DNA of 64,000 nucleotides, taken from positions 1-64,000 of the forward strand of contig VEFU01000003.1 in the NCBI GenBank assembly GCA_007679095.1. Direction: 5' to 3'. The stretch is from Paenibacillus bovis. GTDB lineage: Bacteria; Bacillota; Bacilli; Bacillales; Bacillaceae_C. The position numbers and the translations under genes were made by a program. The notes beneath the pieces are model-generated. The model saw only the letters and a list, made by a program, of their open reading frames with translations, was not told the origin of the DNA and did no database searches. Below are positions 62 to 8,989 of this stretch, in pieces (the first letter of the stretch is position 1; each line of letters begins with the position of its first letter).

Positions 62-75
62 CGTGTAAGAAAAAA

Positions 76-106
76 AATGCCACACAATATAGTGGATTGT
101 GGCATT
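76..106 (-). terminator. Intrinsic terminator of the module cluster
   Basis: The arms AATGCCACA and TGTGGCATT form a hairpin followed on the minus strand by a run of Ts (positions 70-75). It lies right after the stop of the 56-aa gene and would end transcription of the whole four-gene cluster. Confidence 0.8.
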
Positions 107-113
107 AGCAAAT

Positions 114-284
114 TTACTTTATTTCATCCAGTAAGGTGGATAATATTATCTCTTTCTTTATCATTAATTTCGTAAAGTTCTCGACATTTTCTGGGGTTCC
201 AGTTTGCGAAACTGCATTTAGAGCATTAGCCAACGATTTTTCTAAATGAGTGACAGCCTGAATAAATTCCTGCTTTCTTGACAT
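114..284 (-). CDS. 56-aa single-module helical protein of unknown function
   Basis: I do not recognise a named family. The gene starts ATG at 284 after a good ribosome binding site (AAAGGAG, 7 bases upstream) and ends TAA just before a terminator, so it looks genuine despite its size. The protein is one copy of a helical module shared with the three genes upstream: residues about 9-55 include a LE pair (14-15), an A..A heptad-like stretch, a turn with TGTPENVE, then KLMIKKEIIL and LLDEI. It is predicted to be cytosolic, with no signal peptide and no Cys. Sharing the module with neighbours that carry extra domains suggests that it co-assembles with them. A spore-surface role is inference only. 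Confidence 0.75.
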   Translation of the reverse strand: MSRKQEFIQAVTHLEKSLANALNAVSQTGTPENVENFTKLMIKKEIILSTLLDEIK

Positions 285-374
285 ATTGATATTCTCCTTT
301 AGATGAACAGTTTTTACTTAATTTGCATACAATGCTAGTAATTAATGGGTGTTTTACCCTTTGAGTATGCACTA

Positions 375-396
375 AGGCAGCTCAAAAAAGCTGCCT
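375..396 (-). other. Hairpin between the P-domain gene and the 56-aa gene
   Basis: The arms AGGCAGCT and AGCTGCCT form an 8-bp stem just after the stop of the P-domain gene. No clear T-run follows on the minus strand, so I read it as an mRNA-stabilising or leaky terminator hairpin within the cluster. Confidence 0.5.
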
Positions 397-407
397 CTTA
401 TAATATA

Positions 408-1790
408 TTAATTAGGACCAACGTTTTCTGAACAATCTCCGATGAACGTACGTGCAGATACTGGTGCAGTGAAAGTGGTAAAGAAAGTCGTGCTCTCATC
501 AAAACTCGTAGCATTAATTACCCATGTACCAGTACCATTTTGGTTATCTGTGAATTCTATAGAAACATTAAAATCTCCTGAAAGTAGGTTTCCAGTTGCT
601 TGTGCAGTTCCTAATAAGTTGGCTTCTGTTCCATCAACACAAGATATCAATGTTCGTCTTCCTTGAGTAAAGTTTATTGTTGTACCATTATCTCCGAAAT
701 TAATATTAAATTGGTCTACACTTGGATTACACATGCGCGCTCCTGTAAAGCATTGTTCTGCCGATACATTAATTGTACCTGTGAAGCTACTATTAGGTTG
801 GCTAGGTTGCGATACAAAAACGGTTGTTGGGGCACTATTCCCTTGAATACCTAAGCGGAATTTACATGGACATTCATCACCATTGCCACCATTTCCGTTG
901 CCGTTGCCGTTTTCATCAATTTCTTCAACAATCATAAGGAGCAATAATTCCTTATTAATCAACAACTTTAGGAATCTTTCAATTTGATTTGGATTACCAG
1001 CATCAAGAATTACTTGAAATGCTCTCGATAATTCAGATTCTAAATGAAATACAGCTGAATTAATATCATCAGGTTCTACTTGATCTACACCAGGTGCTGG
1101 TTCTTGAACTCCAACACAAGGGTTTGTCGTAATTGTTAAATCCCAACCTTCGGCAATGCTTCCATTATCAAAAGCAGAATCATCGAATACATATAAACTC
1201 CACGTTCCATTTGGATCTGTACCATTAAATACACTAAGCGTGGATCCATATGGTGGTCCAGGAGCAGGGGCAGGAAATACTTCTACACCTTCATAATTTG
1301 TTGGTTTGTACGTGCCAGATACAATTCCGCTTGAATCTGGCAAAAAGTCAGCTGCATTATCATCAAATTCTAACGTAACATTATTAATATTGGTGGAACC
1401 ACCAGCGTCAGACATTAGTACGACACTTTGTCCTTGTGGTCCAACGAGTAATATGTCCAAATCATCTGGCCAAGTATGAGTTAATCCATATAAAGTGACT
1501 GTTACATGTCTTACAGCTCCATCTAAATCTGACACCGTTATATTGGAAGGGTAAGGGGTTGCTGGCCCTTCTGCATTTCCATTAATTATAATCTCATCAG
1601 GATTCTCAAAAGTTGTGTCTTCTGCGTCACAAAGTTCGTCGATAAGTGCCTCAATTAATTTTTCCTTTAATATGATTAAATCTCCAACTCTTTCGATTTG
1701 ATCAAGGTCACCGTTTTCTCTTACAATTCGCATAGCTTCTCCGAATTGCGTCTCCAACGCTGCAATCGTATTTTCAAAACTATTTGGCAT
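408..1790 (-). CDS. Two-module protein with proprotein-convertase P-domain and Cys-containing C-terminal domain
   Basis: The 460-aa protein is a mosaic. Residues 6-53 are copy 1 of the cluster's helical module (LE, LDQIERV, LKEKLIEALIDEL). Residues about 68-222 look like a P-domain, the beta-sandwich found beside subtilisin-like convertases, with DLDILLVGP, a following S.AGG and a closing FNGTDPNGTWSLYVFDD...GW.L.I. Residues 243-291 are module copy 2 (NQIERFLKLLINKE). A GN-rich linker (294-305) leads to a C-terminal domain with CPC (307-309) and Cys at 347, 354, 384 and 453. No protease domain, signal peptide or membrane segment is present, so the P-domain is not serving a neighbouring protease here. 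I infer a structural or self-assembling protein, possibly on the spore surface. Its function is unknown. Confidence 0.85.
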   Translation of the reverse strand: MPNSFENTIAALETQFGEAMRIVRENGDLDQIERVGDLIILKEKLIEALIDELCDAEDTTFENPDEIIINGNAEGPATPYPSNITVSDLDGAVRHVTVTLYGLTHTWPDDLDILLVGPQGQSVVLMSDAGGSTNINNVTLEFDDNAADFLPDSSGIVSGTYKPTNYEGVEVFPAPAPGPPYGSTLSVFNGTDPNGTWSLYVFDDSAFDNGSIAEGWDLTITTNPCVGVQEPAPGVDQVEPDDINSAVFHLESELSRAFQVILDAGNPNQIERFLKLLINKELLLLMIVEEIDENGNGNGNGGNGDECPCKFRLGIQGNSAPTTVFVSQPSQPNSSFTGTINVSAEQCFTGARMCNPSVDQFNINFGDNGTTINFTQGRRTLISCVDGTEANLLGTAQATGNLLSGDFNVSIEFTDNQNGTGTWVINATSFDESTTFFTTFTAPVSARTFIGDCSENVGPN

Positions 1791-1826
1791 TTACTATTTT
1801 CTCCTTTCTTTCATAAAATATTGGAC

Positions 1827-1991
1827 TTAAAATCTATTAACATCCATGATGATTAATTTGAGCACAATTTCTTTCTTAATGAGCAAGCGAACAAATCTTT
1901 CGATTCTATCTGGATCTGCATCATCTATAATTGCACTCAAAGCATTCGTTAATTCCGTTTCTAAATCAACAACAGCATCAGCAAATGGCAT
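1827..1991 (-). CDS. 54-aa single-module helical protein of unknown function
   Basis: This small gene starts ATG at 1991, 11 bases after AAAGGAG, and stops TAA at 1827, 36 bp before the P-domain gene. The protein is essentially one helical module: AVVDLETELTNAL, then a turn with DPDRIERF, then VRLLIKKEIVLKLII. It is closest by eye to the second module of the downstream P-domain protein, sharing LE.EL, P..IERF, LLI.KE and the following hydrophobic run. It has no Cys and no signal peptide. It is probably co-transcribed with its neighbours. The role is unknown; partner or spacer subunit of the larger proteins is an inference. Confidence 0.75.
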   Translation of the reverse strand: MPFADAVVDLETELTNALSAIIDDADPDRIERFVRLLIKKEIVLKLIIMDVNRF

Positions 1992-2017
1992 TTTTCATCA
2001 TTCTCCTTTCTTCTTCC

Positions 2018-2074
2018 TACAATCAATTTATTCGACATTTTTCTTTCCGTAATGTGCGATACAATCAATTTATT
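2018..2074 (-). repeat. 15-bp direct repeat upstream of the 54-aa gene
   Basis: TACAATCAATTTATT occurs at 2018-2032 and again at 2060-2074, in the leader between the Cys-rich gene and the 54-aa gene. It could be a small duplication or a paired regulatory site. I see no consensus promoter here. Confidence 0.6.
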
Positions 2075-2091
2075 TAAAATAAGGATTTAGA

Positions 2092-2490
2092 CTAGCTTTG
2101 CTCTGAAAAACGTTTTTCTCTCCTTTTTCTTCTTCTACAGTGATAGCAATTACAGTATTTATCACATTTCCGCTTTGGTAATTCTTTCTTACACCTACAT
2201 TTGCATTTGCAATCATCATGACAATCATGATCATCACATTTTTCTGGACATTTTTTTATTTCGTCTAAAAGAAACTCGAGTATTATTTCCTTTTTAATTA
2301 CAAGCTTTAAAATATGCTCTAAATTCTCATTAAAATGTCTTAATTCTTCCGCTGTAAATCGGTCTTTATTTTGCCTAAGCACTTCTGCTTCTTCGTTAAT
2401 AATATTTGCAAATGCATGTTCTAATTCAATAAGCGATCTTATGAAATCATCTACATTTTCATGGTGATTATCCTGCATTAACAAGTCCAT
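2092..2490 (-). CDS. Module protein with Cys/His-rich basic tail (132 aa), unknown function
   Basis: Residues about 16-79 are a variant of the cluster's helical module (LIELEHAFANII, NLEHILKLVIKKEIIL, LLDEIKK), with a roughly ten-residue insertion in the turn. Residues 81-118 hold eleven Cys, several His and many Lys/Arg, in patterns such as CKCKCRC and CDKYCNCYHC, followed by a run of Arg/Lys. Such tails occur in spore coat and metal-binding proteins, but no named family is evident. The start ATG follows AAGGAGAGG, and a SigmaK-like promoter lies about 30 bp upstream. It is first in the four-gene cluster. I infer a cross-linkable spore-surface protein; metal binding is an alternative. Confidence 0.8.
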   Translation of the reverse strand: MDLLMQDNHHENVDDFIRSLIELEHAFANIINEEAEVLRQNKDRFTAEELRHFNENLEHILKLVIKKEIILEFLLDEIKKCPEKCDDHDCHDDCKCKCRCKKELPKRKCDKYCNCYHCRRRKRREKRFSEQS

Positions 2491-2518: not shown

Positions 2519-2546
2519 TATTTTATGCGACGTCCTAAAAATTGTT
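2519..2546 (-). promoter_or_regulatory. Candidate SigmaK-type promoter of the module cluster
   Basis: On the minus strand, CATAAAATA (2519-2527) fits the mother-cell -10 pattern CATAnnnTA, with an AC-containing -35 (2544-2545) 16 bases upstream. The predicted start is just before the ribosome binding site. The same AC-16-CATA layout precedes dpaA in this window, a gene expected to be SigmaK dependent. SigmaE and SigmaK sites are hard to tell apart by eye. Confidence 0.4.
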
Positions 2547-7705: not shown

Positions 7706-8989
7706 TTAGGCTGCTATTTTAGTCGCCTCGATATAGGTGAGGTCTCCTAACATCCTTTCAGGATTAAATACAGTTTGGTGAACACTCAGTCCATGTAACA
7801 CTTGAATTAACTTTCTGCACACTACGACCATCGCTTCTTTTTTCTTTAATGGATTATCCTCACGTGAATGATAATAGGTGTACACTTTATGAAATGCTGT
7901 GTTGTTCCGAATCAATGGGAGGATTGCTTTATAAAGAAGCCTTCGTAGCCCTCTTCTTCCTCTTTTTGAAATCTTTTTGGTACCTTGGTGTTTACCAGAA
8001 CTGTTTTCTCGTAATGTTAATCCCGCTAGTTTAATAATTTGGCGTGGATGATTATAGTTTTGAAGAGAGCCTGTTTCAGCCAACAATTCGCTAACAGTGT
8101 TCTCACTAATACCTTTAATAGAAACGAGAAAATTAAACTCTGGTAAGTTCTTTGCTTGTTCCACCATTTCAGTTGTAATCTCTTCGAGCTGAGATTGTAA
8201 AAGTTCTAATTGATCGATAAGAGCTTTTATTTCAATTTTTGCTATATATGCACCGTCCGTGATTCCAATAGAATGCTTAGCCAATTGGATAAGTTTGGCC
8301 ATTTTAGGCTTTCCTGCATACTTAGCACCTGCATCCTTTTGTTGCTTTACCAAATCCTCGACAGAGGCATTTTTGATATCCTCTGGGAGAGGAGTTAGCT
8401 TTAGAACGGTCCGTTCTTGTTGACCATAGTGCTTAAAAACTTGTCTAAACTCTGGAAAGTAAAGGTCAATCCACCGTTGTATACGATTCTTAACTGCACC
8501 AATATCTTTACGAATTCGTTCTCGTATTGATGAACCTTGCCGTAGATTATGATCTACAATTGACATGTCCCTTGGGACACTGAAGTAACCATTCGGAATT
8601 AGTTTTGCGATAACGCGGGCATCTTTCACATCATTCTTTGTTTGTAAATTATCATCCATTTCCTTAGATTGCTTGACGTGTAAAGGGTTCACCAGCACAA
8701 ATGGTATATCGGAGATTTTTAAATAAAACGCTATGTTCTTCCAATAGTGACCTGTTGCTTCAAATCCTATAAGGACTTCTGTTTTATCATGTTGTTCCAT
8801 TAACTCTCGAATAGCGTTATTCAAATAAAGGAAGCCTTCTCTCGATTGAGAAAAATTCCAGACTTTCGCTAATTCTCTTCCCCGACTATCAACTGCACAA
8901 GCATAATGTTTCTCTTTAGCAATATCAATACCAATCACTAGTGTGTTTTCATGTACTTGATTAATTCGTTCATTTCTATTATTCTTCAA
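7706..8989 (-). CDS. IS110-family transposase (DEDD recombinase)
   Basis: The 427-aa protein has an N-terminal RuvC-like DEDD domain: VIGIDIAKEKHY near residue 20, GFEATGHY near 75, and KNDVKDARVIA near 120. These are followed by a helical region and a C-terminal Transposase_20 domain (SIKGISENTVSELLAETG, LAGLTLRENSSGKHQG, KRGRRGLRRLLY). The full-length frame suggests an active enzyme. The start is TTG at 8989, with AAGGAGG 7 bases upstream. That ribosome binding site lies within the 3' arm of a 10-bp hairpin, so translation may be blocked on read-through transcripts. Confidence 0.93.
   Translation of the reverse strand: MKNNRNERINQVHENTLVIGIDIAKEKHYACAVDSRGRELAKVWNFSQSREGFLYLNNAIRELMEQHDKTEVLIGFEATGHYWKNIAFYLKISDIPFVLVNPLHVKQSKEMDDNLQTKNDVKDARVIAKLIPNGYFSVPRDMSIVDHNLRQGSSIRERIRKDIGAVKNRIQRWIDLYFPEFRQVFKHYGQQERTVLKLTPLPEDIKNASVEDLVKQQKDAGAKYAGKPKMAKLIQLAKHSIGITDGAYIAKIEIKALIDQLELLQSQLEEITTEMVEQAKNLPEFNFLVSIKGISENTVSELLAETGSLQNYNHPRQIIKLAGLTLRENSSGKHQGTKKISKRGRRGLRRLLYKAILPLIRNNTAFHKVYTYYHSREDNPLKKKEAMVVVCRKLIQVLHGLSVHQTVFNPERMLGDLTYIEATKIAA

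Follow-up and report, generated by a model that had tools for sequence, protein, structure and literature searches.

A helical hairpin module shared by four adjacent genes of Paenibacillus bovis and its possible role in building the spore surface

Modular attachment of proteins to the spore surface is known from several systems. BclA/BclB-type proteins attach by their N-terminal part, which is followed by a stalk and then by a C-terminal domain for display, and in B. megaterium the N-terminal domain of BclA1, which lacks the leader motif, localizes GFP to the forespore (available part of PMC4674009). F-ENA appendages pair plain subunits with anchoring and capping fusions, F-Anchor and F-BclA, the subunit being a DUF4183 protein with a beta-barrel neck (available part of PMC11952670). 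Here we describe a stretch of Paenibacillus bovis DNA (contig VEFU01000003.1, positions 1 to 64,000; the whole 64,000 nucleotides are hereafter called the window) in which four minus-strand open reading frames (ORFs) at 114-2490, encoding proteins of 132, 54, 460 and 56 amino acids (aa) in the order transcribed, share a module of about 45 residues. We favor, with a probability of roughly 0.6, the explanation that these genes encode a docking and assembly kit for the spore surface.

The locus resembles the described systems in arrangement and differs from each of them in its parts. With BclA/BclB-type proteins its relatives share the attachment part, stalk and display domain, one of them ending in a BclB-type domain; the attachment part, however, is here a hairpin that is also found alone and in tandem. 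An exosporium leader was not matched in the four window proteins at E 1 in NCBIfam, a library that we take to include a model of it. Pfam returned no Collagen match for Gly-X-Y repeats in the same proteins, whereas such repeats are present in relatives with a longer hairpin, and BclA-type membership was rejected for want of both leader and collagen. Membership of F-ENA or of S-ENA, the latter linked to DUF3992, was rejected as well, because the window proteins gave no DUF4183 or DUF3992 match in Pfam at E up to 1; F-ENA shares the plain subunits and fusions but not the subunit fold. CotY, CotZ and ExsY (PF10612) share a Cys-rich outer-layer setting and adjoin Cys/His-tailed hairpin genes in two genomes; the 132-aa protein differs in containing a hairpin, and membership was rejected since the Pfam scan found no PF10612. 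B. megaterium BclA1 and BclA2 also place alternative N-terminal domains (NTTRR-F1, NF033675; N_to_GlyXaaXaa, NF033172) before collagen repeats. Those domains are unrelated to our profile of the long hairpin (A3, below; hhalign E 0.69 and 0.24, respectively), and the BclA1 domain reads by eye as beta-rich. Profile comparison thus led us to reject both NTTRR-F1 membership and the inclusion of the Priestia BclA1 and BclA2 proteins in the hairpin family. The leader motif, as quoted in the available part of PMC10987987, was not seen by eye in the window proteins.

Homology of the five module copies

A first-pass annotation of the window had placed five copies of the module in four genes, two of them consisting of the module alone, and both claims held. 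The strongest homology test was a hidden Markov model (HMM) of eight short modules from other genera, built without window sequences and run with Z set to 5000. This model recovered all five copies, matching the 56-aa (E 1.8e-19), 54-aa (E 4.9e-16) and 132-aa (E 3e-9) proteins once each and the 460-aa protein twice (domain E 6.8e-7 and 4.4e-8); the ORFs are as first described, and the 54- and 56-aa proteins are module throughout. Searching the organism's own genome with the 54-aa protein returned the other copies at E 5.7e-9, 2.5e-8 and 0.0095 and the 132-aa protein weakly, at E 1.85, with no further match at E <= 10. By hhalign, the 132-aa protein aligned to the set of four short copies at E 1.1e-8. 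Leave-one-out HMM scores were also compared with those of 2000 shuffles per copy that kept the hydrophobic/polar pattern. For each of the five copies 0/2000 shuffles reached the real score, so the segments are more alike than random amphipathic helices; the margin of the 132-aa copy was thin (26.1 bits versus a shuffle maximum of 25.0). We regard the modules as almost certainly homologous.

The shared module is predicted to be a helical hairpin. An AlphaFold2 model of the 132-aa protein, built from seven sequences, places helices at residues 8-40 and 47-79, with block values of the predicted local distance difference test (pLDDT) of 82-93 over residues 11-80, and a Foldseek search of the PDB with this model gave no match at E <= 0.001. 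The model of the 460-aa protein was poor (mean pLDDT 45.6) and for this reason was left out of the fold search; both short modules still appear in it as helix-turn-helix. In the 132-aa copy the turn is about 14 residues longer than in the others and a Cys/His-rich tail follows the module, the whole protein having 11 Cys and 8 His. This longer hairpin and its tail had escaped the earlier description of the module.

Relatives of the short form are few. A four-row profile of the window sequences matched 6/397 genomes of the order at E <= 5e-4 and a 12-row profile 7/397 at 1e-4, the own genome included in both, and in a sample of the class the single match among 398 genomes was the own one. No module match was found in 15 congeners, and profile A2 matched 1 of 34 genomes of the family, again the own genome only. 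Single-sequence searches with the 54-aa protein yielded no relative in 60 genomes except its own and none among genome contigs, and a 74-aa relative had no match among plasmids. A scan of named contigs located the module in Cytobacillus praedii, Oceanobacillus arenosus and Metabacillus iocasae. Seven genomes of the order sample, including that of the window, together with C. praedii form a set of eight short-module systems. Every one of these has a Cys-bearing or long-turn partner, with at least 6 Cys in 7/8 (the partner in genome G175 has 2) and a clearly longer turn in 7/8 (the exception, in G154, has Cys and a nearly short turn). Plain hairpins occur in five of the eight, extended in two cases by a short tail (about 10 residues in one, 20 in the other), and decorated hairpins in six. 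The division into plain and decorated subunits proposed in the first-pass annotation recurs among the seven other short-module genomes, as it does in the long-hairpin family; the Cys/His-rich long hairpin, which that annotation had not set apart, makes up a third class.

A larger hairpin family with exchanged cargo

The 132-aa protein led to a domain of about 75-100 residues in congeners and in other genera. Profile A3, which represents this long hairpin and contains no window sequences, matches the 132-aa protein at E 8.1e-7 over profile positions 16-96 of 98, and hhalign of the protein against the long-hairpin family gave E 8.9e-9. Matches to A3 were found in at least 56 of the 397 genomes and 38 of the 135 genera of the order, the own included; copies may have been overlooked because no more than 12 candidates per genome were scored. 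Long and short forms are joined through intermediates (A3-A5, E 7e-9; A4-A5, E 3.1e-15). Judged by these profile comparisons, the short module probably belongs, as a single branch, to a wider family that has no name and that the first-pass annotation had missed. A long-hairpin protein searched against phages had no match. Two weak matches (L016 and L011) belong, by eye, to a different small protein family, and a third region (L060) looked unrelated on reading; all were dropped.

To classify the long form we counted 62 ORFs in 40 loci chosen from those fetched, with cut-offs set after examples had been seen: 22 were plain, 16 carried collagen repeats by pattern (one call, L125, being doubtful), 2 carried TTS repeats, 15 had a Cys/His tail and 7 were of other kinds. 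The collagen fusions seen have the hairpin on the N-terminal side of the stalk. Five of these fusions (L052, L055, L107, which is cut by the locus end, L109 and L153) were scanned against NCBIfam, and a single one, L055, carries the BclB-type exosporium domain TIGR03721 at its C-terminal end (E 7.5e-36, above cut-off). Glycosyltransferases, identified by reading, lie near hairpin genes in L052, L053, L055, L056, L078 and L105, and in B. velezensis NZ_CP083716 a gene near a hairpin gene is annotated as a glycosyltransferase. Several architectures stood out besides these. On an IMG/VR contig (L153, 4929-7010) collagen repeats and a YVTN beta-propeller region come after the hairpin. Long Thr/Ser repeats of the TTS type, possibly a glycosylated non-collagen stalk, follow the hairpin in L053 (8410-9210) and L113 (940-1803). 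Asp/Pro-rich repeat tails occur in L067 (9722-10321), L129 (1174-1779) and L130 (1501-2019), the first of these situated near a collagen fusion. Two giant open frames, of 4897 aa (G346:C35:55010-55273) and 4922 aa (G287:C1:1930037-1930282), also contain the long hairpin.

The 460-aa protein illustrates the cargo of the short form. It contains a P_proprotein domain (PF01483; Pfam E 1.9e-9, 37.9 bits against a gathering cut-off of 21) and a separate C-terminal domain, neither of which the first-pass annotation had noticed. Over module and P-domain (227 columns) it is 45% identical to a 623-aa protein of another genus (G175; 2e-50), which consists of an N-terminal part, three tandem modules and a P-domain; the N-terminal part weakly resembles the choice-of-anchor domain NF038133, below cut-off. 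When eight cargo pieces were compared all against all by blastp, the two P-domains were the only strong pairing, with one weak pair at E 0.03-0.05. Cargo is thus exchanged while the hairpin is kept. The C-terminal domain has a 51% identical homologue in a congener, there a stand-alone protein of 155 aa, and homologues of 55-58% identity on five Priestia plasmids. Three of the plasmid records were opened: two have an ORF of 160-161 aa, and in the third the domain forms the N-terminal portion of a longer ORF (370 aa). In the former two, the stand-alone homologue lies near genes annotated as spore coat protein, YheC/YheD and YjcZ; the third has no such spore annotation nearby. Viral contigs searched with the C-terminal domain gave no match.

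We found no model of the module in Pfam or NCBIfam among the window proteins and family members scanned, and no description of it in the open-licence literature of PubMed Central. Sixteen A3 members gave two weak Pfam matches (best E 0.0025) and one weak NCBIfam match (E 0.0099), all to unrelated families, and 12 A4 members had no Pfam match at E 0.01. The PDB sequences, searched with the 460-aa protein only, contained no match to its modules. Within these libraries the earlier remark that no described family has this make-up holds. Modular spore-surface attachment is itself known, but we did not find the hairpin domain and its three-part use in the libraries and literature searched.

Spore links, proposed assembly and alternatives

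Neighboring genes and a promoter motif connect the hairpin genes to sporulation. In genomes G158 and G269 the gene for the Cys/His-tailed hairpin and a CotZ-family gene are direct same-strand neighbors, 142 and 158 bp apart, and PF10612 was found in 4/7 short-module genomes searched (G000, G158, G269 and G334). A SigK-like motif, in scans using the SigK consensus as we take it to be, lies 55 nt ahead of the start codon of the 132-aa gene; the same scan found none upstream of the 54-, 460- and 56-aa genes. In an initial count of hand-picked genes, which included two CotZ genes, the motif preceded 8/30 against 1.8 expected from shuffles, or, against controls, 7/28 versus 10/135 (p 0.012). We then repeated the count in 52 loci, with mechanical ORF starts, taking every distinct hairpin ORF for which 200 nt of upstream sequence was at hand and control ORFs of the same loci. 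The motif is enriched among them, being present within 200 nt of 18/81 hairpin and 14/219 control ORFs (one-sided Fisher p 2e-4, with related genes not independent). Together with the neighborhoods, the motif makes a role at the spore surface likely.

The proposed kit would build and decorate the outermost spore layer. Transcription would proceed from the SigK-type promoter, late and in the mother cell. The 132-aa protein would be the base piece: cross-links or metal would fix its Cys/His-rich tail in a cysteine-rich outer layer, and the long hairpin would serve as the docking site. Plain and decorated hairpins would then join it by helix packing, as we infer, the bare 54- and 56-aa hairpins filling or extending the assembly and the two hairpins of the 460-aa protein plugging into it, so that the P-domain and the second domain are displayed outward. 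The tandem modules of the 460-aa protein (two) and of the 623-aa protein (three) suit a bundle where one decorated chain takes several positions. The same logic would operate widely across the order with the longer hairpin of about 75-100 residues, often with a collagen stalk as cargo. Tentatively, and at somewhat less than even odds, we extend it to a general one: the hairpin could be an unnamed polymerization and docking unit of Bacillales spore surfaces, in which Cys/His-tailed members form the base, plain members a layer or fiber, and fusions plug in cargo. Collagen stalks, TTS-repeat stalks, P-domains and others would all be such cargo, and the unit would offer a third route beside the leader-peptide and ENA routes. 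If so, many hypothetical proteins beside collagen-like genes would gain a role, the attachment of exosporium-like naps without a leader peptide would become a testable question, and a hairpin of 54-56 residues might serve as a small spore-display tag. The long form is widespread among the genera sampled yet has no Pfam or NCBIfam model.

The alternative that fares best is that the module is a one-way anchor, comparable to the exosporium leader, each of whose hairpins binds some unrelated receptor of the outer layer rather than another hairpin; plain copies would then be competitors, spacers or remnants. N-terminal localization domains are known (available part of PMC4674009), and the hairpin of the collagen fusions stands where BclA proteins have their leader. 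We nonetheless consider a one-way anchor unlikely, as plain copies are common (22/62) and the tandem modules, like the C-terminal modules of a 233-aa protein in G158 and a 238-aa protein in G269, better suit an interaction unit. It is less probable still that the proteins belong to the vegetative cell surface or to biofilms, as might be suggested by the four collagen-like proteins that B. amyloliquefaciens FZB42 needs for biofilm formation and root adhesion (available part of PMC4319854). The short proteins have no signal peptide evident by eye, and the CotZ neighbors in two genomes, the BclB-type domain and the SigK-like motifs point to the spore. Action of the Cys/His-rich proteins in metal binding or redox, with hairpins that merely dimerize them, would account for the tails of 15/62 long-family ORFs and the Cys-rich partners (at least 6 Cys in 7/8) of the short systems; it is quite improbable, however, because plain and most decorated hairpins have no such tail and the tail sequences, compared by eye, differ from one another. 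Chance likeness of unrelated amphipathic helices, for which only the thin shuffle margin of the 132-aa copy speaks, has a negligible probability and can be regarded as refuted by the other-genera HMM, which finds all five copies, and by the hhalign match of the 132-aa copy.

Several observations weigh against the assembly kit that we favor. The predicted structures are of monomers only, and the binding of module to module is an inference. The direct comparison of the long and short profiles (A3 and A4) gives E 7.7e-6 but covers only 26 columns, in helix 2. The short form is rare, in 7/397 genomes of the order and 1/398 of the class with the own counted in both. The module genes are about 31 kb apart in G334 and about 657 kb apart in G269, so the set is not invariably clustered. 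PF10612 is absent at threshold in 3/7 genomes (G154, G170 and G175) and present yet not adjacent in G000 and G334, and CotZ is therefore not an obligatory partner. No motif precedes 63/81 hairpin ORFs. Within the window, the only pointers to sporulation are the motif 5' of the 132-aa gene and a spoVS-like neighbor, the ymdB, rny and recA neighbors (named by reading) being general genes.

Layout of the cluster and its flanks

The features of the cluster are collected in Table 1. A GGAG resembling a ribosome-binding site precedes all four start codons by eye. The terminator-like hairpin after the 56-aa gene is absent from the list of the pattern scan, in which the loop limit was 8; beyond it, at 32-62, lies a second terminator-like inverted repeat. 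Base 1 of the window is the first base of the contig, so the sequence past the 56-aa end of the cluster is missing.

Table 1. Features of the hairpin cluster (window positions) and plasmid copies of the C-terminal domain (positions in the loci named).
Feature	Position	Strand	Description and basis
132-aa gene	2092..2490	-	long helical hairpin and Cys/His-rich basic tail; proposed base or adaptor
Module copy 1, long-turn form, in 132-aa protein	2251..2451	-	hhalign, AlphaFold2
Cys/His-rich basic tail of 132-aa protein	2095..2250	-	sequence, residue counts
54-aa gene	1827..1991	-	module alone, plain subunit; ORF and other-genera HMM
460-aa gene	408..1790	-	module, P-domain, module, Gly/Asn linker, C-terminal domain; decorated subunit
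N-terminal module copy of 460-aa protein	1620..1790	-	profile match
P-domain (PF01483) region of 460-aa protein	1110..1601	-	Pfam
Second module copy of 460-aa protein	906..1076	-	profile match
C-terminal domain of 460-aa protein	414..872	-	homologues, some as stand-alone proteins of about 155-160 aa
56-aa gene	114..284	-	module alone, plain subunit; ORF and other-genera HMM
SigK-like promoter motif AC-N16-CATAAAATA, upstream of first gene (132 aa)	2519..2545	-	motif scan, consensus as assumed
Terminator-like hairpin and T-run, 3' of 56-aa gene	70..106	-	fold -10.7 kcal/mol, z -3.8
Priestia plasmid copies of C-terminal domain	L150 8986-9471; L151 8986-9468; L152 1000-2112		stand-alone in L150 and L151; in 370-aa ORF in L152

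The other flank of the cluster carries genes that we take to be spoVS, ymdB, rny and recA. Between recA and a cinA-like gene, at 7706-8989, lies an ORF of 427 aa that by eye encodes an IS110-type transposase.

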